Shown here one piece after another: positions 26,498 through 34,488 of a stretch of 64,000 bases of DNA. The position numbers were made by a program, and so were the translations under genes. The notes beneath the pieces were generated by a model. The model saw only the letters and a program-made list of their open reading frames with translations, searched no databases and was not told the origin of the DNA. This DNA comes from Comamonas odontotermitis (GTDB lineage: Bacteria > Pseudomonadota > Gammaproteobacteria > Burkholderiales > Burkholderiaceae_C), in the NCBI RefSeq assembly GCF_020080045.1, contig NZ_CP083452.1, positions 253,001 to 317,000 on the forward strand, read 5' to 3'. Numbering within the stretch: position 1 is the stretch's first letter; every line of letters starts with the position of its first letter.

Positions 26498-28579
26498 TCA
26501 AACGGTACCGGGACTGGCATTGTTGCTGGCGTTCTGCGCCTTCTTGGCAAATTCCTCACGCAGCTTGCGCAGCTTCTCGCGGGGGTCTTCGCGGGCGGTG
26601 CTTTGGTCCAGTCCCATTTCTTCAATAAAGCGGCTGGGCAGGGCGGAGACAAGCTCGCGTCCCTTTTTGCGGCGCTTGGTCCAGCTCACGGCCAGCGAGC
26701 GTTGCGCGCGGGTGATGCCTACATACATCAGGCGGCGCTCTTCCTGCAGCCGCAGGGCGACGTCTTCGGTCACTTTTTGCTGGCGGCCTTCGTCGTCTTC
26801 CAGCTTGAAGGGCAGCAGTCCTTCGTTGACGCCGATCAACATGACATGTGGCCACTCCAGCCCTTTGCTGGCATGCAAGGTCGACAGCACCACCATGTCC
26901 TGCTCCTTTTCTCGCTCGCTGATGGTCGAGAGCAGCGCGATGGTCTGCGAGACTTCCAGAAGGCTCTTGGCCTCGCTGGTGGTGGTGATGTCGGCGGTCG
27001 TCGAGGTCTGGCCACCCGCACGCTGGGCCATCCACTCACAGAATTCGAGCACATTGGTCCAGCGCGCGGCCGCAAGCTTTTCGCTGTCTTCGGCGTCGTA
27101 CAGGTGCTGTTCGTAACCAATCTCCTTGAGCCACTCCATCAGGAACGCAAGCGATTCCTCGGCGCCGCGGGTCTGGCGTGCCCGGTATTCCAGGTCGTTG
27201 ATGTAGCGGCCGAACTCCAGCAGGCTTTCACGGCCCTTGGCGGGCATGGCGTCTTCGAGCATGCTGTTGAAGAGCGCACCGAACATGCTGCAGTGGTGCG
27301 CTTTCGAGAATTCGCCCAGCCGGCCCAGGGTGGTGTGGCCGATGCCGCGCTTGGGGTTGGTGATGGCGCGCAGGAACGCCGGATCGTCATCGTTGTTGAT
27401 CCACAGCCGGAACCAGGCACATAGATCGCGAATTTCGGCGCGGTCGAAAAAGCTGGTGCCGCCCGAGACCTTGTAGGGCACGTTGGCGCGGCGCAAGGCC
27501 TTTTCAAACGGCTTGGCCTGGTGGTTGGCGCGGTACAGAATGGCAAAGTTCTTCCAGTCCGGCGGTGGGTTGGCGCTGGCGCGCAGGCTCATGATGCGCG
27601 CCACGACGCGCTCGGCCTCATGCTCCTCGGTATCGCAATCCACGATGCGCACCGGCTCGCCTTCGCCGAGTTCGGAGAACAGCGTCTTGGGAAACAGCTT
27701 GGGGTTGGGCTGGATCACATTGTTGGCCGCGCGCAGGATGGCGCTGGTGGAGCGGTAGTTCTGCTCCAGCTTGATGACCTTGAGCTGCGGAAAATCCACC
27801 GGCAGCTTCTTGAGGTTATCGAGCGTGGCGCCGCGCCAGCCGTAGATGCTCTGGTCGTCGTCGCCCACGGCGGTGAAATGGGCCCGCTCGCCGATCAGCA
27901 GCTTCAGCAGATCGTACTGAGTGGCATTCGTGTCCTGGTACTCGTCCACCAGCACATGGCCGAGATGGGCCTGCCATTTTGCGCGCACGGCCGGGTGGTC
28001 GCGCAGCAGGCGCAGCGGCATGCCGATCAGGTCGTCAAAATCCACGCTCTGGTAGGCGGTCAGGCGCTCTTCATAGCGCTGCATGATGACCGCAATGGCG
28101 CGCTCGTTGTCATCGGCGGCCTGGGCGAGGGCCGCCTTGTAGTCCAGCCCCATGTTCTTCCATTTGCTGATCGTCCACTGCCACTGGCGTGCGGTGGCCG
28201 CATCTGCGGAGCCTCCGGCCGCATCTTTCAGGATGCCGACGACATCGTCGCTGTCGAGGATGCTGAACTGGGGCTTGAGGCCCAGCACATGACCGTCTTC
28301 GCGCACCATTTTCACGCCCAGGGCATGGAAGGTGCAGATCAGCACATCATTGGCGGCACGGCCGATCAGCCCCTTGGCACGCTCGCGCATTTCGGCGGCA
28401 GCCTTGTTGGTGAAGGTGATGGCAGCAATCTTGCGCGGTGCAAGGCCTGTCTCAATCAGCCGGGCAATCTTGTGCGTGATGACGCGCGTCTTGCCGGAGC
28501 CCGCACCTGCGAGCACCAGGCAAGGGCCTTGCGTGTAATGCACTGCTTGCAATTGGGCGAGATTGAGGCCTGCTGCCAT
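26498..28579 (-). CDS. rep: ATP-dependent DNA helicase Rep
   Basis: A 693-residue superfamily 1A 3'-5' helicase that clears protein roadblocks ahead of forks and aids restart. The start at 28579 begins 'MAAGLNLAQLQAV', matching the Q-motif of Rep; the frame is open 46 codons upstream without homology. Motif I is 'LAGAGSGKT' (23-31), Ia 'ITFTNKAAAEM', II 'VLVDEYQDTN', III 'AVGDDDQSIYGWRGA', IV 'LEQNYRST', V 'VVLSTLHASKGLEWPHV' and VI 'ERRLMYVGITRAQ'. Length and motif details fit Rep better than UvrD. It is followed by the lipoprotein gene with a possible 4-bp overlap. Confidence 0.94.
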   Translation of the reverse strand: MAAGLNLAQLQAVHYTQGPCLVLAGAGSGKTRVITHKIARLIETGLAPRKIAAITFTNKAAAEMRERAKGLIGRAANDVLICTFHALGVKMVREDGHVLGLKPQFSILDSDDVVGILKDAAGGSADAATARQWQWTISKWKNMGLDYKAALAQAADDNERAIAVIMQRYEERLTAYQSVDFDDLIGMPLRLLRDHPAVRAKWQAHLGHVLVDEYQDTNATQYDLLKLLIGERAHFTAVGDDDQSIYGWRGATLDNLKKLPVDFPQLKVIKLEQNYRSTSAILRAANNVIQPNPKLFPKTLFSELGEGEPVRIVDCDTEEHEAERVVARIMSLRASANPPPDWKNFAILYRANHQAKPFEKALRRANVPYKVSGGTSFFDRAEIRDLCAWFRLWINNDDDPAFLRAITNPKRGIGHTTLGRLGEFSKAHHCSMFGALFNSMLEDAMPAKGRESLLEFGRYINDLEYRARQTRGAEESLAFLMEWLKEIGYEQHLYDAEDSEKLAAARWTNVLEFCEWMAQRAGGQTSTTADITTTSEAKSLLEVSQTIALLSTISEREKEQDMVVLSTLHASKGLEWPHVMLIGVNEGLLPFKLEDDEGRQQKVTEDVALRLQEERRLMYVGITRAQRSLAVSWTKRRKKGRELVSALPSRFIEEMGLDQSTAREDPREKLRKLREEFAKKAQNASNNASPGTV

Positions 28580-28750
28580 GGAGCGATGAAACCTTGCGGA
28601 TAAAAGATGAAGAAGGTGCAGAAGAATAGCGGCAAGCTCCGCCGACTGCAGACATGGGACTTTGTATATTTTTTTGTTACAGAAAGCACACGTTTCGCCG
28701 GGCTGAATGTCAATCAATGTAGGTAGATGCTTTCCACCTTGACGAAAGAC

Positions 28751-28778
28751 TTGCGCCTAACTTACAAGCTTTTAGAAT
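28751..28778 (+). promoter_or_regulatory. Candidate sigma-70 promoter of the GTPase/roadblock operon
   Basis: TTGCGC (28751-28756) and TAGAAT (28773-28778) are 16 bp apart, in the 268-bp divergent gap between rep and the winged-helix gene. The -10 is good and the -35 only partial. The start codon lies 70 bp downstream. Confidence 0.35.
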
Positions 28779-28847
28779 GTGCGATAGCATCGTTGTTGTT
28801 CAACGAAAGTGCTAATAAATTTAGACAATAAGTTACGAGTCACATCC

Positions 28848-29555
28848 ATGCAGACCGCCGGTATTTCCGCAGATTTGCTCACCCCCAATGTCAGGCACCG
28901 TTTCGTGCAACTGTTCGGGGTGGCTGCACGCAAGTCGGTGCTTCCCTGGAAGGAGGTGCCTCGAGACCGTGCCCAACTGGTTCTCGTGGACCAGGGCATG
29001 GCTGATGTCGTTTCTTCGCTGGGCAACAGCCCTTGCGTGGTGACCGTCGGCAATGTAGGGGGCAACCTCACGGGCAATGCCTCCTGGGCGGGGCGCCTGG
29101 AGGTGAACTACACGCTGAGCGACCTGATCGATACGCTGGACCGTGCCGCCGTCTTTCTGCTGGACTGGGAAGCGCGCCAGAAAGTGATTGCCCGGAGTGC
29201 GCGTGCGCAGACTCAGGTGGCTGACGCCGCACCTGCGGCCAAGCAGGAATATCTCTACCAGCTCAAATCCTGGGTATCGATGGGCGCGCCCTTCAACACC
29301 GGTGCCTGCATCCGGGCACTGGCCCTGCTGTCGCGCGAGCCTATTTCCCTTGCCCAACTCTGCACCCATAGCGGAATGGATTCCGCTACCGCCCGCCACA
29401 TGCTGGTGGAACTGGGTCAACGCGGCGTGCTGCGTGGTGTCGCCATGTCGTCTCAGCGCGCAATTGCTTCTGCGGGAAGCCGTGAGCCGGTACACTCCGG
29501 TGGATTACTCGGCCGTTTGAGCCGATGGATCCGCGGAGGAGGAAAAGCGGCATGA
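28848..29555 (+). CDS. Uncharacterised protein with receiver-like N-terminus and C-terminal winged helix (GTPase/roadblock operon)
   Basis: A 235-residue protein of no recognised family. Residues about 1-110 show alternating hydrophobic strands and helices ('AQLVLVDQGMADVV', 'PCVVTVGNVGGNL', 'LSDLIDTLDRAAVFLLDW') reminiscent of a degenerate receiver fold, but no full phosphorylation pocket is evident. Residues about 150-200 ('IRALALLSREPISLAQLCTHSG', 'MDSATARHMLVELGQRGVL') look like a winged helix. The tail is basic (GRLSRWIRGGGKAA). The stop overlaps the ATG of the GTPase gene, so the products are probably co-translated partners. DNA binding is inferred only from the helix pattern. Confidence 0.72.
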   Translation: MQTAGISADLLTPNVRHRFVQLFGVAARKSVLPWKEVPRDRAQLVLVDQGMADVVSSLGNSPCVVTVGNVGGNLTGNASWAGRLEVNYTLSDLIDTLDRAAVFLLDWEARQKVIARSARAQTQVADAAPAAKQEYLYQLKSWVSMGAPFNTGACIRALALLSREPISLAQLCTHSGMDSATARHMLVELGQRGVLRGVAMSSQRAIASAGSREPVHSGGLLGRLSRWIRGGGKAA

Positions 29556-30124
29556 TTCAGGAGTTGGACTGGGGCACGCGGCAAAAGCTGGCGCTGCCCC
29601 GCATTGCGCTGTGTGGGCCCATGGGCATAGGCAAGACAACAGCCGTGCGTACCTTGTGTGGCGAGCTGATGTCCCATTCGGATGTGCGCAATCTCGACCT
29701 TGCCGCCCACACCAAGGACTTCACCACGGTCGGTACCGAATTCGGTGAAATCGACCTGGGCGATGGTGATCGCGTCCAGATCTGCGGCTGCCCGGGGCAG
29801 GAGCGTTTCAGCTTTGTGCGTCAATGGGTGTTGTCGGTGTCCATGGGTGTTTTCATCATGGCCGACGTGAATGCCGCTGGCAGCCTGGCGGAAACCACGC
29901 ACATTCTCGGCGAGATCAGCAAGTTGGAGACGGCGCCTGTCACCTTGATTCTGAGCGCGCGTGACGCGGGCGATACACAAATTGAAACATTCGCGCAAGG
30001 TGTGTATTCTGCCGGCTATGGCGTGATTCCCGTGTTGCAGGCCGATCCCCGTGATCGCGCCCAGATGCTGGAAGTAATGAGTGTGCTAGTTTCCATGCTG
30101 TCTTTGCAAAGCGAGAATCCATGA
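29552..30124 (+). CDS. Atypical small Ras-like GTPase/ATPase (MglA-like)
   Basis: A 190-residue P-loop protein of the small GTPase type. Walker A is 'CGPMGIGKTT' (G22-T29). The switch II region is 'QICGCPGQERFSFVRQWVL' (76-94), keeping PGQER but having Gly79 where Ras proteins have the DxxG aspartate. The base-recognition position reads 'LILSARDAG' (S134-A-R-D137) in place of N/TKxD. MglA also lacks the canonical Asp, so function may be kept, but nucleotide specificity is uncertain. It is coupled by 4-bp overlaps to the winged-helix gene before it and the roadblock gene after it. Confidence 0.8.
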   Translation: MIQELDWGTRQKLALPRIALCGPMGIGKTTAVRTLCGELMSHSDVRNLDLAAHTKDFTTVGTEFGEIDLGDGDRVQICGCPGQERFSFVRQWVLSVSMGVFIMADVNAAGSLAETTHILGEISKLETAPVTLILSARDAGDTQIETFAQGVYSAGYGVIPVLQADPRDRAQMLEVMSVLVSMLSLQSENP

Positions 30125-30519
30125 CCGCATCACAACCCATGATCCCTGCCCAGGTTGTCACAGCGGGCCAACAGGCGCTGGATAAATTGATCGGGCCCGT
30201 CGATGGGGTCCGTGTTGCTCTGCTCAGCACTCCCGATGGTTTTGAGATCGCATCGCTGCGCACGAACAGCGAGTTGCAACTCAACCGCCTGTCGGCCATG
30301 GCCGGCTCGCTGATGGCGATGGCACGTGCCGTGGGCCGGGAAATCAACCATGCGGGCTGCAAACGCCTCACGTTTGAAACCGACAGTGGCGTGGTTGTGT
30401 TTCAATCGGTATCATCCGAGTTCCCGTGTATTTTGTGCATGGTGCTCGACACCAATGCCATCCTGGGCCGTGTGCTCTGGGCGGCTGCGGAAGTCGGTGC
30501 GGAAATGAACAAACCCTGA
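30121..30519 (+). CDS. Roadblock/LC7-like domain protein (MglB-like)
   Basis: A 132-residue protein with the profilin-like roadblock pattern: 'LIGPVDGVRVALLSTPDGFEIASLRTN' (two strands with a turn), a long helix 'LNRLSAMAGSLMAMARAVGREI', then strands 'RLTFETDSGVVVFQSV' and 'FPCILCMVLD'. Roadblock proteins often act as GAPs or scaffolds for adjacent small GTPases, as MglB does for MglA. Its ATG overlaps the GTPase stop, which strongly suggests a complex. The regulatory role is inferred. Confidence 0.8.
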   Translation: MTASQPMIPAQVVTAGQQALDKLIGPVDGVRVALLSTPDGFEIASLRTNSELQLNRLSAMAGSLMAMARAVGREINHAGCKRLTFETDSGVVVFQSVSSEFPCILCMVLDTNAILGRVLWAAAEVGAEMNKP

Positions 30520-30622
30520 TGGCGCCGCCTGCATGGCGCCGGCAGGGAGAAAGCTGGCCCATGCGTTGCATTGGCCGAATGAGCCAGCGACGACAATCAG
30601 CCAGTGCGTGAAGGGGAGATGA

Positions 30623-30982
30623 ATGGCATCGGTACAAGAAGCTTTGACACAACTGCTCACCGTTGATGGCGCCATGTGCGCAGCACTGGTGGACAGCGCC
30701 AGCGGCATGCTGTTGGGCAGCGCAGGCTCCGGTCTGGACCTCGAACTGGCTGCGGCGGGCAATACCGAGGTGGTACGCGCCAAGCTCAAGACGATGAAGT
30801 CGCTCGGCCTCAACGACTCGATTGACGATATTCTGATTACCCTGGGCACGCAGTACCACATCATTCGTCCCATGGCGCAAAAGGAAGGCCTCTTCCTGTA
30901 TCTGGTGCTCGACAAGCAGCGCAGCAATCTGGCGCTGTCCCGTCGCAAATGCGCAGATGTGGAAAAGCTCGTGTCGATCTGA
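30623..30982 (+). CDS. Second roadblock/LC7-like small protein
   Basis: A 119-residue protein with the same fold pattern as the preceding gene product: helix 'VQEALTQLLTVDGAMCAALVDSASGMLLGS', helix 'DLELAAAGNTEVVRAKLKTMKSLG', strands 'DSIDDILITLGTQYHIIRPM' and 'GLFLYLVLDK'. A ribosome site (AAGGGGAG) precedes the ATG. It is separated from the first roadblock gene by 103 bp that contain a GGCGCC hairpin but no T-run, so read-through is likely. Two roadblock proteins could form a heterodimer on the GTPase. Confidence 0.75.
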   Translation: MASVQEALTQLLTVDGAMCAALVDSASGMLLGSAGSGLDLELAAAGNTEVVRAKLKTMKSLGLNDSIDDILITLGTQYHIIRPMAQKEGLFLYLVLDKQRSNLALSRRKCADVEKLVSI

Positions 30983-30992
30983 TCCCTTGTAG

Positions 30993-31060
30993 CGAGCGCC
31001 TGGCGCTCGTTTCGCCAATAGCCGATACCCAGAACCTGCCGCGTCGCTGGCAGGTTTTTC
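30993..31060 (+). terminator. Tandem intrinsic terminators after the GTPase/roadblock operon
   Basis: First hairpin: 30993-30999 pairs with 31003-31009 (7 bp, loop 3), followed by a short T-run. Second: 31033-31040 pairs with 31049-31056 (8 bp, AACCTGCC arm, loop 8), followed by TTTC. The second is the stronger. Confidence 0.8.
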
Positions 31061-31125
31061 TATTTGTACGGGCTATATCGATGCAGGAATGCTCTTTTTT
31101 TCTCTGGTAGAGGCGTGGTGTGAGC

Positions 31126-31136
31126 GGGGGGGGGGG
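31126..31136 (+). repeat. Homopolymeric G tract (11 G) upstream of a transporter gene
   Basis: Eleven consecutive Gs, the longest homopolymer in the window, lie 88 bp upstream of the GTG start of the AEC transporter gene. Tracts of this length can slip during replication. It is in non-coding DNA, so any effect would be on transcription or the leader. Confidence 0.8.
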
Positions 31137-31223
31137 CACTTTGGGGATGTCCCGGGTGCCTGATAGCCCGCGCTGGTCCCTCGCGCTACAGCAGCAGCGC
31201 AGAGGCATCGGCACAATACGCGG

Positions 31224-32186
31224 GTGCTGTCTGTCTTTCTTGTCACCTTTCCATTCTTTGCGCTGGTGCTGTGCGGCTATCTGGCCACGCGCCGCGGCAT
31301 ATTTCCGCTGCCCGCCATCGCCGGGGTGAATGCCTTCGTGCTGTTCTTTGCACTGCCGTGCATGCTGTACAAGGCGGGCTCGTCGCTGCCGTTTGCACAG
31401 TTGATGAATATTCCCACGCTGCTGCTGTACATGCTGGTGCAGCTCTTGATGGTGGGCGGCTGTGTCTGGTTCTCGCGCAGAGGCGGGCTGGACTGGAACA
31501 ACAGCGCCTTTGGCGCACTGGTCACGGCTTTCCCCAATACCGGGTTCATGGGGCTGCCGCTTCTGGTGGCGCTGCTGGGCGAGGCGGCTGCCGGGCCAGC
31601 CATCCTGTCGATGCTGGTGGACATGGTGATGACAACCTCGCTGGGCCTGGCCCTGTCTCGCATGGATGGCGCTGCAGGCAACATTCGCCCGGCGCTGGGC
31701 AAGGCGTTCAAGGGCGTGCTCTCCAATCCCATGCCCTGGTCGATCCTGCTGGGCGCGCTCGCCTCCTACCTGCAGTGGCAACTGCCTGTGGCCATCGACA
31801 AGACGGTCGGGCTGCTGGCGAGCGCAGCGACACCGGTCGCGTTATTTGCCGTGGGCGCGGTACTCGCGCGCTCCAAGATGGTGCAGGCCGAGTACGCGGC
31901 CCCAGGCAGCTATGTACCGCTGGCGCTGGTCAAATTGTTCGTGCATCCGCTGCTGGTGCTGGCGCTGGGCCATGCTGCCATTGCGCTGGGCTTGCCGCTG
32001 CCGTCCTTTTCGGTCATGGTGCTGGCGCTGGTGGCTGCCCTGCCCAGTGCCAGCAATGTCACCTTGCTGGCCGAGCGCTATGGCGCGCACAACGGCCGCA
32101 TTGCGCACATCATTCTGGTGAGCACGGCGCTCGCCTTTGTCAGCTTTACACTGGCGGTCAGTGGGTTTGCAGAATTTTTTCAATAA
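31224..32186 (+). CDS. AEC-family (auxin efflux carrier) transporter
   Basis: A 320-residue inner-membrane carrier with about ten hydrophobic segments. The start is GTG at 31224, giving 'MLSVFLVTFPFFALVLCGYLATRRG', with no clear ribosome site. Family features are 'VNAFVLFFALPCMLYKAG' and 'AFPNTGFMGLPLLVALLGEAA' in the N-terminal half, and 'LALVAALPSASNVTLLAERYG' in the C-terminal half, an inverted-repeat bundle layout. Bacterial AEC proteins carry dicarboxylates and related acids such as malate or malonate; the substrate here is unknown. It is convergent with priA. Confidence 0.9.
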   Translation: MLSVFLVTFPFFALVLCGYLATRRGIFPLPAIAGVNAFVLFFALPCMLYKAGSSLPFAQLMNIPTLLLYMLVQLLMVGGCVWFSRRGGLDWNNSAFGALVTAFPNTGFMGLPLLVALLGEAAAGPAILSMLVDMVMTTSLGLALSRMDGAAGNIRPALGKAFKGVLSNPMPWSILLGALASYLQWQLPVAIDKTVGLLASAATPVALFAVGAVLARSKMVQAEYAAPGSYVPLALVKLFVHPLLVLALGHAAIALGLPLPSFSVMVLALVAALPSASNVTLLAERYGAHNGRIAHIILVSTALAFVSFTLAVSGFAEFFQ

Positions 32187-32229: not shown

Positions 32230-34488
32230 TTAGATAGCTTGCGGATCCACATCCACCAGCCAGCGTACCAAGGCTTTGTGCTCCGGGTGGCTGCGCAGCC
32301 AGTGCAGTGTGGGCTGCCAGGCGCGCAGGAATTGCTGCAGGGCCTTGCGCGATGGGCTCTCGATCAGCATCTGCGCCCGTTCCACATTGGCAACGCGCTG
32401 CACGGCGAGCGGAATGGGCGGGTAGACGAATACATCTTCCGCTCCGGGCATGGGCTGGCTGGTTGCGGCAGCCGCAGCGGCACGCAGAAAGCCCTGCGCC
32501 ACCTCCTGCGTTCGGGCATCGGCACGGATGATGGCCTGGTGGGCAAATGGTGGCATGGCAGCGTCGCGCCGCTCCGCCAGTTGCTGGGCGGCAAAGCCTG
32601 CGAAGTCCCAACGGCGCAGCGCCTGATATACGGCATGGTCGGGCTGCAGGGTCTGCAGCCACATTTCCACCTTGCTGCCTTGCGCTGCCACGTAGGCAGC
32701 GTCGCGCCCGGCACGGCCCGCCGCCTGCAGCAGCAATGAGAAAAGGCGTTCAGGCGCGCGAAAGTCGCTGGACATCAGGGCGCCATCGGGCTGCACGGCG
32801 GCCACCAGGGTGACGCGCCGGAAATCATGGCCCTTGGCCACCATTTGCGTGCCAACCAGCACGTCGACATCGCCTGCGTGCATATGGGCCAGCTTTTCTT
32901 CCAGTGCGCCCTTGGCCTTGGTGGTGTCGGCATCGATGCGTGCGATGCGGGCTGGGTCGCCGTCGGGGCGCTGTACGTTGCGCAGCAGGCGCTCCAGCTC
33001 TTCTTCGAGCTGCTCGGTTCCCTTGCCCAGTGGCAGGATGTCGGGGTTGCCACAGCTGGGGCAGGCGTGCGGTACGCGCTGGGTGTATCCGCAGTGGTGG
33101 CAGCGCAGCGTGCGGTCATTCTTGTGAAAGACCTGGTGCGCGCTGCAATGGGGGCAATCGCTTTTCCAGCCGCAATCGCCGCAGAAGAGCACTGGGGCAA
33201 AACCGCGCCGGTTCAGCAAGACCAAGGCCTGCTCGCCGCGCTCCACACGTTCTGTAATGGCTTGCAGCAGCGCATCGGAGAACACCGTGCGGCGCGGTTG
33301 CTGCCGCATATCGACCATGCGCAGGCGTGGCATGGCGCCTGCGCCGGATTCGGTGGCACCTGGGCTGGCCACCCCTAAGCTGGTAGCACCTACGCCGGTA
33401 GCACCTACGCCGGTAGCACCTACGCCGGCCGCACCGATACGGCTGGGCATGGCCAGCCGCAGGTAGCGGCCGCCGGCATCCTGCGGTCCTGCGGTTCCGG
33501 CAGGGCGGCTGGCCCACCAACTCTCCAGCGAGGGTGTGGCGGATCCCAGTATGACCTTGGCATTCAGATCATGGCCGCGCCATATGGCCAGATCGCGTGC
33601 CGAGTACCGCGCTCCCTCCTGCTGTTTGTAGCTGGGGTCGTGCTCCTCATCGACGATGATGAGTTGGAGCTGCGGCATCGATGCAAATATCGCCATGCGC
33701 GTGCCGAGGACGATGCGGGCCTGGCCTGTATGCGCAGCCAGCCAGCTTTTCAGGCGCTGCGGCGGCGTCATGCCGCTGTGCATGCTGACAACGGCGCTTT
33801 CACCCAACTGGGCCGTGAAGCGGGCTTGAAAGCGTGCTTCCAGCTGTGGGGTCAGGTTGATCTCGGGCACCATCACCAGCACCTGGGCAGTTGGATCGCG
33901 CTGCAGCAGCTGCGCGGCCTGGTGCAGGTAGACCTCGGTCTTGCCGCTGCCAGTGCTGCCAAATAGCAGGAATGGCCCTGCATTGGCATCGATCTGCGCA
34001 CAAACAACGGCTTGCTCGGGGCTCAAGGCCAAGGCGGTGTCAGTGGCTGTGTTTGTTGGCGCGGCCTGGCTTTTGCGTTTGAGCCGCCGGGTCAGCTGCT
34101 CTGCTGTCAAATCACGCAAGGCGGGCGGCAAGGCGGTGATGGCCATCTCACCCAGACTGCGCTGATAGTAGCGTGCAGCAAATTGCACCAGGCGCAACCA
34201 GTTTTCCGGCATGGGGTCAATGCCTTCGAGCACGGCAGCGATGGGTTTGAGTGCGCTGGCCTCGCCTGCATAGCTGTCATCCTCACCCCAGACAACACCC
34301 AGCACTTCCCGTTTGCCCAGGGGTACACGCACCAGACTGCCGCGTGGCAGCAACTGTTCGCTGCGATAGCTCAGCAGCTCGCTGGCAGCGCTGATGGCGC
34401 TATGGGCAGGCGTATGGACGGCGACAAGAAGCAAGGGCACGGAATGCAGAGACAGGAGATGCGTGGGCGGAGCGGACCAAAGTACCAA
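32230..34488 (-). CDS. priA: Primosomal protein N' (replication restart helicase PriA)
   Basis: A superfamily 2 helicase that reloads the replisome at stalled forks. Blocks: N-terminal DNA-binding 'LLPRGSLVRVPLGKREVLGVVW', Walker A 'LFGSTGSGKTEVYL' near residue 177, Walker B/DEEH 'LIIVDEEHDPSYKQQEG', the zinc-binding cysteine series 'CGDCGWKSDCPHCSAH' and 'CHHCGYTQRVPHACPSCG', and 'GTQMVAKGHDFRRVTLVAAVQ'. The start is uncertain: the frame opens with TTG at 34488, while GTG at 34440 gives an N-terminus closer to other PriA proteins. An Ala/Gly/Thr/Val-rich insertion (near residues 345-385) between helicase motifs is encoded partly by a 15-bp tandem repeat. Confidence 0.93.
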   Translation of the reverse strand: MVLWSAPPTHLLSLHSVPLLLVAVHTPAHSAISAASELLSYRSEQLLPRGSLVRVPLGKREVLGVVWGEDDSYAGEASALKPIAAVLEGIDPMPENWLRLVQFAARYYQRSLGEMAITALPPALRDLTAEQLTRRLKRKSQAAPTNTATDTALALSPEQAVVCAQIDANAGPFLLFGSTGSGKTEVYLHQAAQLLQRDPTAQVLVMVPEINLTPQLEARFQARFTAQLGESAVVSMHSGMTPPQRLKSWLAAHTGQARIVLGTRMAIFASMPQLQLIIVDEEHDPSYKQQEGARYSARDLAIWRGHDLNAKVILGSATPSLESWWASRPAGTAGPQDAGGRYLRLAMPSRIGAAGVGATGVGATGVGATSLGVASPGATESGAGAMPRLRMVDMRQQPRRTVFSDALLQAITERVERGEQALVLLNRRGFAPVLFCGDCGWKSDCPHCSAHQVFHKNDRTLRCHHCGYTQRVPHACPSCGNPDILPLGKGTEQLEEELERLLRNVQRPDGDPARIARIDADTTKAKGALEEKLAHMHAGDVDVLVGTQMVAKGHDFRRVTLVAAVQPDGALMSSDFRAPERLFSLLLQAAGRAGRDAAYVAAQGSKVEMWLQTLQPDHAVYQALRRWDFAGFAAQQLAERRDAAMPPFAHQAIIRADARTQEVAQGFLRAAAAAATSQPMPGAEDVFVYPPIPLAVQRVANVERAQMLIESPSRKALQQFLRAWQPTLHWLRSHPEHKALVRWLVDVDPQAI
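33382..33426 (-). repeat. 15-bp tandem repeat (three perfect copies) inside priA
   Basis: Three identical 15-base units (33382-33396, 33397-33411, 33412-33426) with degenerate units on both sides. They encode a GATGV pentapeptide repeat in a linker of PriA. The unit length is a multiple of three, so copy-number changes keep the frame. Confidence 0.85.

Follow-up and report, generated by a model that had tools for sequence, protein, structure and literature searches.

A Group 3 MglA-type GTPase module with two unlike roadblock proteins and a putative membrane-attached winged-helix partner in Comamonas odontotermitis

The window, i.e. the whole stretch of 64,000 nucleotides analyzed here (G000:C2:253001-317000, from a three-contig Comamonas odontotermitis genome of 4.83 Mb), contains four small genes on the plus strand, read from the sequence as ORFs at positions 28848-30982. 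Gene 1 (28848..29555) encodes P0001, a receiver-like/winged-helix protein of 235 aa; gene 2 (29552..30124) encodes P0002, an MglA-type GTPase of 190 aa; gene 3 (30121..30519) encodes P0003, a roadblock protein of 132 aa with an Asp-Gly pair (hereafter R1); and gene 4 (30623..30982) encodes P0004, a roadblock protein of 119 aa in which Ser-Gly replaces Asp-Gly (hereafter R2). A GTG at 28809 is a possible alternative start of P0001; the C. odontotermitis ORF at locus L036 is likewise 235 aa long. Genes 1-2 and 2-3 share 4-bp ATGA overlaps (at 29552 and 30121), i.e. three of the four genes are coupled, as the original prediction from this DNA had stated, and genes 3 and 4 are spaced by 103 bp. 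Gene 4 is followed by a terminator-like hairpin of 11 pairs with a T tail (31031..31058, plus strand); such hairpins are not more numerous in the region than in shuffled sequences (3 found vs 2.7 expected). A promoter scan of the region gave nothing above chance, and Rfam at gathering thresholds gave no match at 28000-32000.

A Rep/UvrD helicase gene and a PriA gene flank the module on either side (window 26498-28717 and 32230-34488). Of the 29 loci L036-L064, 25 have the Rep helicase gene and 25 a membrane-transport gene, and the PriA gene was detected at 13 loci. Because the flanks are kept among close relatives (25/29 loci), we regard the module as a stable chromosomal locus and not a recent mobile insert. 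Database searches returned 99 homologs of P0002, 53 of P0001 and, for P0004, 7969 of 7999 scored candidates. Since three of the four proteins have homologs in the database and the four-gene order recurs in distant families, the module is more than a chance arrangement.

P0002 passes the Pfam cut-off for the Ras family (5.6e-5, 23.2 bits vs 21.6), and its closest named relative is from Comamonas odontotermitis (95-96%). The peculiarities that had singled out this P-loop protein were all read in its sequence: a Walker A motif (GPMGIGKT), Gly79 in place of the DxxG Asp, within the G3 motif GCPGQ (residues 79-83, 29786..29800), and SARD in place of NKxD in the G4 region (residues 135-138, 29954..29965), where Arg137 is kept and no acidic residue follows two places on. 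To these we add Arg90 in switch II (29819..29821), a position where the ordinary Group 3 sequences and the conservons, both discussed below, have Trp.

The receiver-like part of P0001 (residues 1-124, 28848..29219) and its winged-helix domain (residues 135-199, 29250..29444) are seen in the predicted structure (pTM 0.50 for the whole model), in agreement with the predicted architecture. Residues 1-124 matched receiver domains in VIA-align; the sequence narrowly fails the Pfam HTH_IclR threshold (21.8 vs 22), and a Foldseek search with the model returned nothing that reached E 0.001. Asp48 closes the strand 44-48, at the expected site of the receiver acceptor Asp, and is conserved in the family (D in 45/47, E in 2/47 sequences). 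However, the strand-5 Lys is missing: there is no Lys at residues 80-91 of P0001, and Lys is not among the three commonest residues at family positions 82-91. The N-terminal part was accordingly rejected as a canonical phospho-receiver. Averaged over 47 members, the net charge of the winged-helix domain is +2.66, i.e. mildly basic, and its wing bears Arg at position 192 in 36/47 and at position 196 in 28/47 of the P0001-type proteins. The recognition helix (residues 179-191) has a mean net charge of 0.02 and 1.23 Lys plus Arg per 13 residues, and its exposed positions are variable.

The two roadblock proteins are not alike. R1 passes the Pfam Robl_LC7 threshold (3.6e-8); R2 has no Pfam match, and its assignment comes from the predicted structure, which has a roadblock fold resembling MglB and Ragulator p14. 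The assignment of both proteins as roadblocks thus holds, for R1 by Pfam and for R2 by fold. An Asp-Gly pair, which is conserved in the MglBs coupled to Groups 2-5 of MglA GTPases (PMC4316618, sections examined), was found in 78/78 R1-type sequences, conservon roadblocks included, and in only 2/47 R2-type sequences, which mostly have Ser-Gly, by a loose test that accepts the pair anywhere up to residue 45 of the domain. R2 is the most conserved member of the module, with 71-81% identity to the window protein among lower-ranked alignment rows, compared with mostly 52-65% for the GTPases and 34-53% for the winged-helix proteins once the close Comamonas set is left aside, these sets not being species-matched. 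It accompanies both ordinary and window-type GTPases, and among 120 genomes of the window's family an R2 match is present in 26 (in 11 of them at 1e-46 or better) and a GTPase match in 14. R2 copies with no GTPase match nearby occur in other genomes of this family, much like the orphan mglB of Snodgrassella.

A system of the same composition has been published. Group 3 of the MglA (mutual-gliding) small GTPases was described from genomes by Wuichet and Sogaard-Andersen in 2014 (PMC4316618); according to the sections of that paper examined here, it is almost exclusive to beta/gamma-proteobacteria, joins MglA and one or two MglBs to a protein that is receiver-like at its N-terminus and has a winged helix at its C-terminus, and shows GTPGQ in G3, a G4 often without Lys and an Arg in G5 (DAR), Stenotrophomonas being one of the genera named. 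The window and its relatives show each of these features: an adjoining protein with a receiver-like N-terminus, a variable linker and a winged-helix C-terminus; an MglA-family GTPase without the G3 Asp; a G4 without the canonical Lys (SARD) and a G5 that bears Arg (DPR); coupled roadblocks; and a beta/gamma-proteobacterial distribution, both in the named loci and in a class-wide sample. We conclude that the module is almost certainly a Group 3 system. It was originally proposed to be undescribed, which is incorrect, because the 2014 description matches both the composition and the odd G3/G4 motifs; the notion of a nucleotide-switch module with roadblock partners, similar to MglA/MglB, is well supported. 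The window system differs from the published Group 3 consensus (as given in the same sections) in having GCPGQ, with Cys replacing Thr, and in belonging to a divergent branch with Arg90 and no G4 acid, which occurs in Comamonadaceae, Oxalobacteraceae and some Burkholderiaceae. The module is known in kind and of use for its details, and what is added to the known kind are the gene-order counts, a C-terminal helix in the winged-helix protein, the Arg90/G4 trait of the branch, and the split between R1 and R2.

Two other identities were considered and rejected. The actinobacterial conservons CvnA-D (Group 2) resemble the module in uniting a small GTPase, an MglB-type roadblock and a third protein, with an odd G4 and DAR in G5, but they include a histidine kinase (PMC4316618, sections examined), and none turned up when 8 window genes around the module, the two immediate neighbours among them, were scanned; moreover, they fall on the opposite side of the GTPase tree, and the tail of their upstream ORF (putative CvnC) has a net charge of -2 at the 3 loci read. 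The Myxococcus MglA/MglB/MglC system (Group 1) likewise has an MglA-type GTPase, roadblock partners including a second roadblock, and receiver-domain partners, but Group 1 proteins have TVPGQ in G3 and an Arg beside the Thr of G2 (PMC4316618, same sections), while the window protein has GCPGQ and FTTVG.

The tree of GTPases is a quick one of 93 sequences, for which the program warns of long branches meeting; of the other MglA groups it covers Group 2, through the conservons. It separates 85 proteobacterial sequences from 8 sequences of actinobacterial conservons (SH-aLRT 100) and places the window type on the same side as Stenotrophomonas. Within the proteobacterial side, the 51 window-type sequences (the window, its paralog, L007 and L036-L083) cluster together with an SH-aLRT support of 99, and the stem that leads to them is long, at 0.81 changes per column. 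All 51 have the switch-II Arg90 (46 read directly, 5 from aligned columns) and Arg137, and in none of them does an acidic residue follow two places after the latter; the P-loop, the G2 Thr, PGQ and the G5 DPR/DVR are retained. Trp is found at position 90 in 30/31 of the other proteobacterial sequences, in 3/3 from Stenotrophomonas and in 8/8 conservons, and of these 31 other proteobacterial sequences 24 have Asp at the G4 acid position and 3 have Glu, compared with an acid in 0/3 from Stenotrophomonas. Sixteen GTPases from 12 further genomes of the window's family comprised 14 ordinary members, all with Trp and with Asp or Glu at G4 (14/14 each), one of the window type, and one in which no G3 motif was found; L009, from the same family, also has an ordinary GTPase. 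Because ordinary GTPases occur in the window's own family, Arg90 and the missing G4 acid are, judging from the sequences compared, a trait of the window-type branch only, and not of the whole family or of Burkholderiales. The presence of ordinary relatives in the same family means that two chemistries of catalysis and of nucleotide binding can be compared directly. We predict Arg90 to be a candidate catalytic residue, and the guanine specificity of the branch appears uncertain, because the G4 acid is missing in 51/51 window-type sequences and present in their ordinary relatives.

Gene order was analyzed by scanning genome contigs with the patterns GIGKTT and [CVY]G[CS]PGQ, which yielded 60 loci; the patterns were taken from the window type and favour its branch, and they include neither position 90 nor G4. 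The 48 GTPases of L036-L083 are accompanied by an upstream ORF in 46 cases, by R1 in 41 and by R2 in 40, and all four genes are present in 37. Eleven loci are incomplete: six carry a Comamonas winged-helix/GTPase pair without a roadblock (L065-L070), L074 lacks a full R1, L073 and L081 lack R2, and L054 (cut by the contig end) and L079 have no upstream ORF of the required length. In Stenotrophomonas all four genes are present at 3/3 loci. In the class-wide sample a GTPase was found in 37/229 genomes; the 32 GTPase ORFs at 30 loci of this sample, the window's own among them, were read with flanks no longer than 1.5 kb: 25 are preceded by an upstream ORF (that of L025 is unrelated), 26 are accompanied by R1, and all four genes are present in 9 cases. 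A scattered gene order in relatives had been named as a result that would speak against the module; the order is instead kept at most loci, the main exception being the conserved pair without roadblocks. The window genome itself carries such a pair (at G000:C1:3555298; G000:C1:3553798-3557325, L002; L003:9387-10844), which sits between two integrase-core ORFs and adjoins an MFS transporter gene. This two-gene Comamonas paralog raises the question of whether the switch can work without an adjoining roadblock.

The upstream proteins share a feature beyond the winged helix, namely a variable linker followed by a terminal helix, e.g. GLLGRLSRWIR or GLLSSIRRRLG. In P0001 this is the basic amphipathic helix LLGRLSRWIRGG (residues 220-231, 29505..29540), proposed here as a membrane anchor; the model has a helix at residues 220-229, with low confidence (mean pLDDT of 60 over residues 221-230). 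For each protein we took the 11-residue stretch with the highest hydrophobic moment among its last 30 residues, and a tail passed if this moment reached 0.55 with a net charge of at least +2. By this measure 63/70 distinct upstream tails pass, compared with 11/196 neighbouring proteins (150 aa or longer, from 20 distant loci) and 0/74 GTPase tails, and the mean moment is 0.70 for the upstream tails vs 0.47 for the neighbours. The Fisher value for this enrichment (3e-41) overstates the case, because the upstream proteins are related and their tails are not independent. Tails pass in both branches (window-type 42/44, other 21/26), as do 11/14 in a later set from the window's family. The seven that fail are a tail shared by L007 and L058, those of L008, L021 and L064, and three from Stenotrophomonas, which are amphipathic with zero net charge in the scored stretch. 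As controls, the E. coli FtsA anchor scored 0.84 (WIKRLNSWLRK, to be compared with GLLGRLSRWIR of the window), and MinD scored 0.53, its best stretch not being its anchor, i.e. MinD did not stand out. The helix is not mentioned in the examined sections of PMC4316618, and a literature search found no paper on a membrane-type C-terminal helix in these proteins or on the window-type GTPase branch.

Taken together, the best explanation is in our opinion a Group 3 switch built on a membrane scaffold, with R1 as an activator and an output in pilus activity or polarity, to which we give a probability of roughly 0.6. P0002 would cycle between nucleotide states, with R1, which keeps the Asp-Gly pair of MglB, as its GTPase activator (GAP). 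MglC and Ragulator act as a modulator or platform, and R2, which lacks the pair, could be a partner or modulator of R1, or a platform. In the Ragulator/LAMTOR complex with Rag GTPases, too, roadblocks form a GTPase platform at a membrane, and the fold of R2 is near that of p14, although that complex is eukaryotic and the likeness is an analogy only. The C-terminal helix of P0001, which may be a membrane anchor much like that of FtsA, would attach the switch to the inner membrane; there P0001 would recruit or sense the GTPase and relay its state to some process at the cell surface, for which type IV pilus activity and polarity are the likeliest candidates. For the membrane-tethered scaffold role of P0001, considered by itself, we see about an even chance. 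Group 3 spans many beta/gamma-proteobacteria, and a membrane-type helix, if true, would redirect experiments to the inner membrane.

One alternative for P0001 is that it binds DNA and is controlled by the GTPase and roadblocks, i.e. that the module is a transcription switch, as the 2014 authors suggested from the winged-helix partner (PMC4316618, sections examined). The receiver-like plus winged-helix architecture does resemble that of response regulators, and the mildly basic domain with Arg at 192 and 196 in the wing is compatible with it, but the recognition helix is neutral overall and its exposed positions vary, the strand-5 Lys is absent, and different families share the membrane-type helix at the C-terminus; apparent fusions of helical and roadblock-like parts at five distant loci (see below) would also fit a role in protein interactions. 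Because of the conserved C-terminal amphipathic helix and the recognition helix without net charge, we infer that a membrane-attached scaffold is likelier than a plain transcription factor, and we consider a transcription switch unlikely. Of the original proposal that nucleotide state is linked to DNA binding, what stands is that such a link is possible; the same two features make it less likely than a membrane scaffold. The chief alternative to a membrane anchor is a docking peptide: short amphipathic helices commonly bind other proteins, and as the four proteins are encoded together, the helix could bind the GTPase or a roadblock dimer in a cytosolic complex. Against such docking, which seems to us rather doubtful, the helix is basic and FtsA-like, its hydrophobic residues vary, as lipid binding would allow, and the two-gene Comamonas paralog keeps it without neighbouring roadblocks, though roadblocks encoded elsewhere could serve.

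A further alternative concerns the GTPase itself: the window type might have lost GTP specificity and become an ATP-binding protein or a nucleotide-locked scaffold. The absence of the G4 acid (51/51, while the ordinary members of the family have it in 14/14) and the long stem of the branch would agree with this, but the nucleotide-binding motifs listed above are kept, Stenotrophomonas also lacks the acid (3/3), and CvnD9 has GTPase activity in a group whose G4 is often without Lys (PMC4316618, sections examined), all of which makes the loss quite improbable. With respect to the preferred reading, a Group 3 switch on a membrane scaffold, one may also entertain a bolder version, according to which Group 3 systems in general are membrane-bound platforms and not transcription switches, with the Ras-like switch borne by a pseudo-receiver/winged-helix protein that an FtsA-like C-terminal helix anchors, Arg90 is a built-in catalytic finger that replaces Trp, and the guanine-specificity acid was dropped in the window branch; we regard this version as speculative and, as a whole, less likely than not.

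An output in type IV pilus activity or cell polarity is proposed because of the analogy with MglA and a result from Snodgrassella, and we rate it as possible, at somewhat below an even chance. The mgl locus of that bacterium was assigned to Group 3 and has one mglA, two coupled mglB genes and one unlinked mglB, and Meng and colleagues linked the orphan mglB to motility, reporting that its G78R mutation changes how the bacteria spread on 0.5% agar and how they colonise a non-native host (PMC11112851, sections examined); however, Snodgrassella is another beta-proteobacterium, and the mutation tested lies in the orphan gene and not in the operon. Among the neighbours of 20 distant loci (97 chosen from 309 ORFs) there was no recurrent pilus or chemotaxis family, the best family occurring in 4, and a receiver domain was found in 2/97 of the scanned ORFs. 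The main text of a paper on the Xylella pilus (PMC9956873) mentions neither MglA, nor GTPase, nor roadblock. A strong PilT match was found in 37/37 genomes with the GTPase and in 156/192 others (per-genome calls above the cut-off being judged from E-values), but 23 of the 36 genomes without a strong match are smaller than 2 Mb, and no GTPase genome is that small; the co-occurrence was discarded as evidence of a pilus link, being uninformative once genome size is considered.

Several further arrangements were seen during the scans. The window genome has two more R2 genes in tandem (C2:39076-40208, L116), near genes for malate synthase and a LysR-type regulator. In the window's family there are proteins of ~390-450 aa that start with [MV]LTSLFGDL and have a C-terminal R2-like roadblock domain (L121:3430-4773, L122:3125-4456, L123:3307-4581, L124:4146-5312 and others); the three scanned (L121, L122 and L123) gave no Pfam match. 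At five loci of distant class members a gene of 210-237 aa lies between the GTPase and R1 (L014:2035-2748, L018:2028-2678, L023:2045-2677, L030:818-1468 and L034:833-1468) and, when read by eye, looks like a fusion of a helical N-terminal segment with a roadblock-like one; three of the five were scanned, with one sub-threshold Robl_LC7 match. Comamonas testosteroni NFYY023 possesses two complete four-gene modules (L047 and L058), and another genome carries two complete modules of the ordinary type ~4 kb apart (G327:C1:2093600-2101300, L134 and L135), with a third elsewhere (L136).
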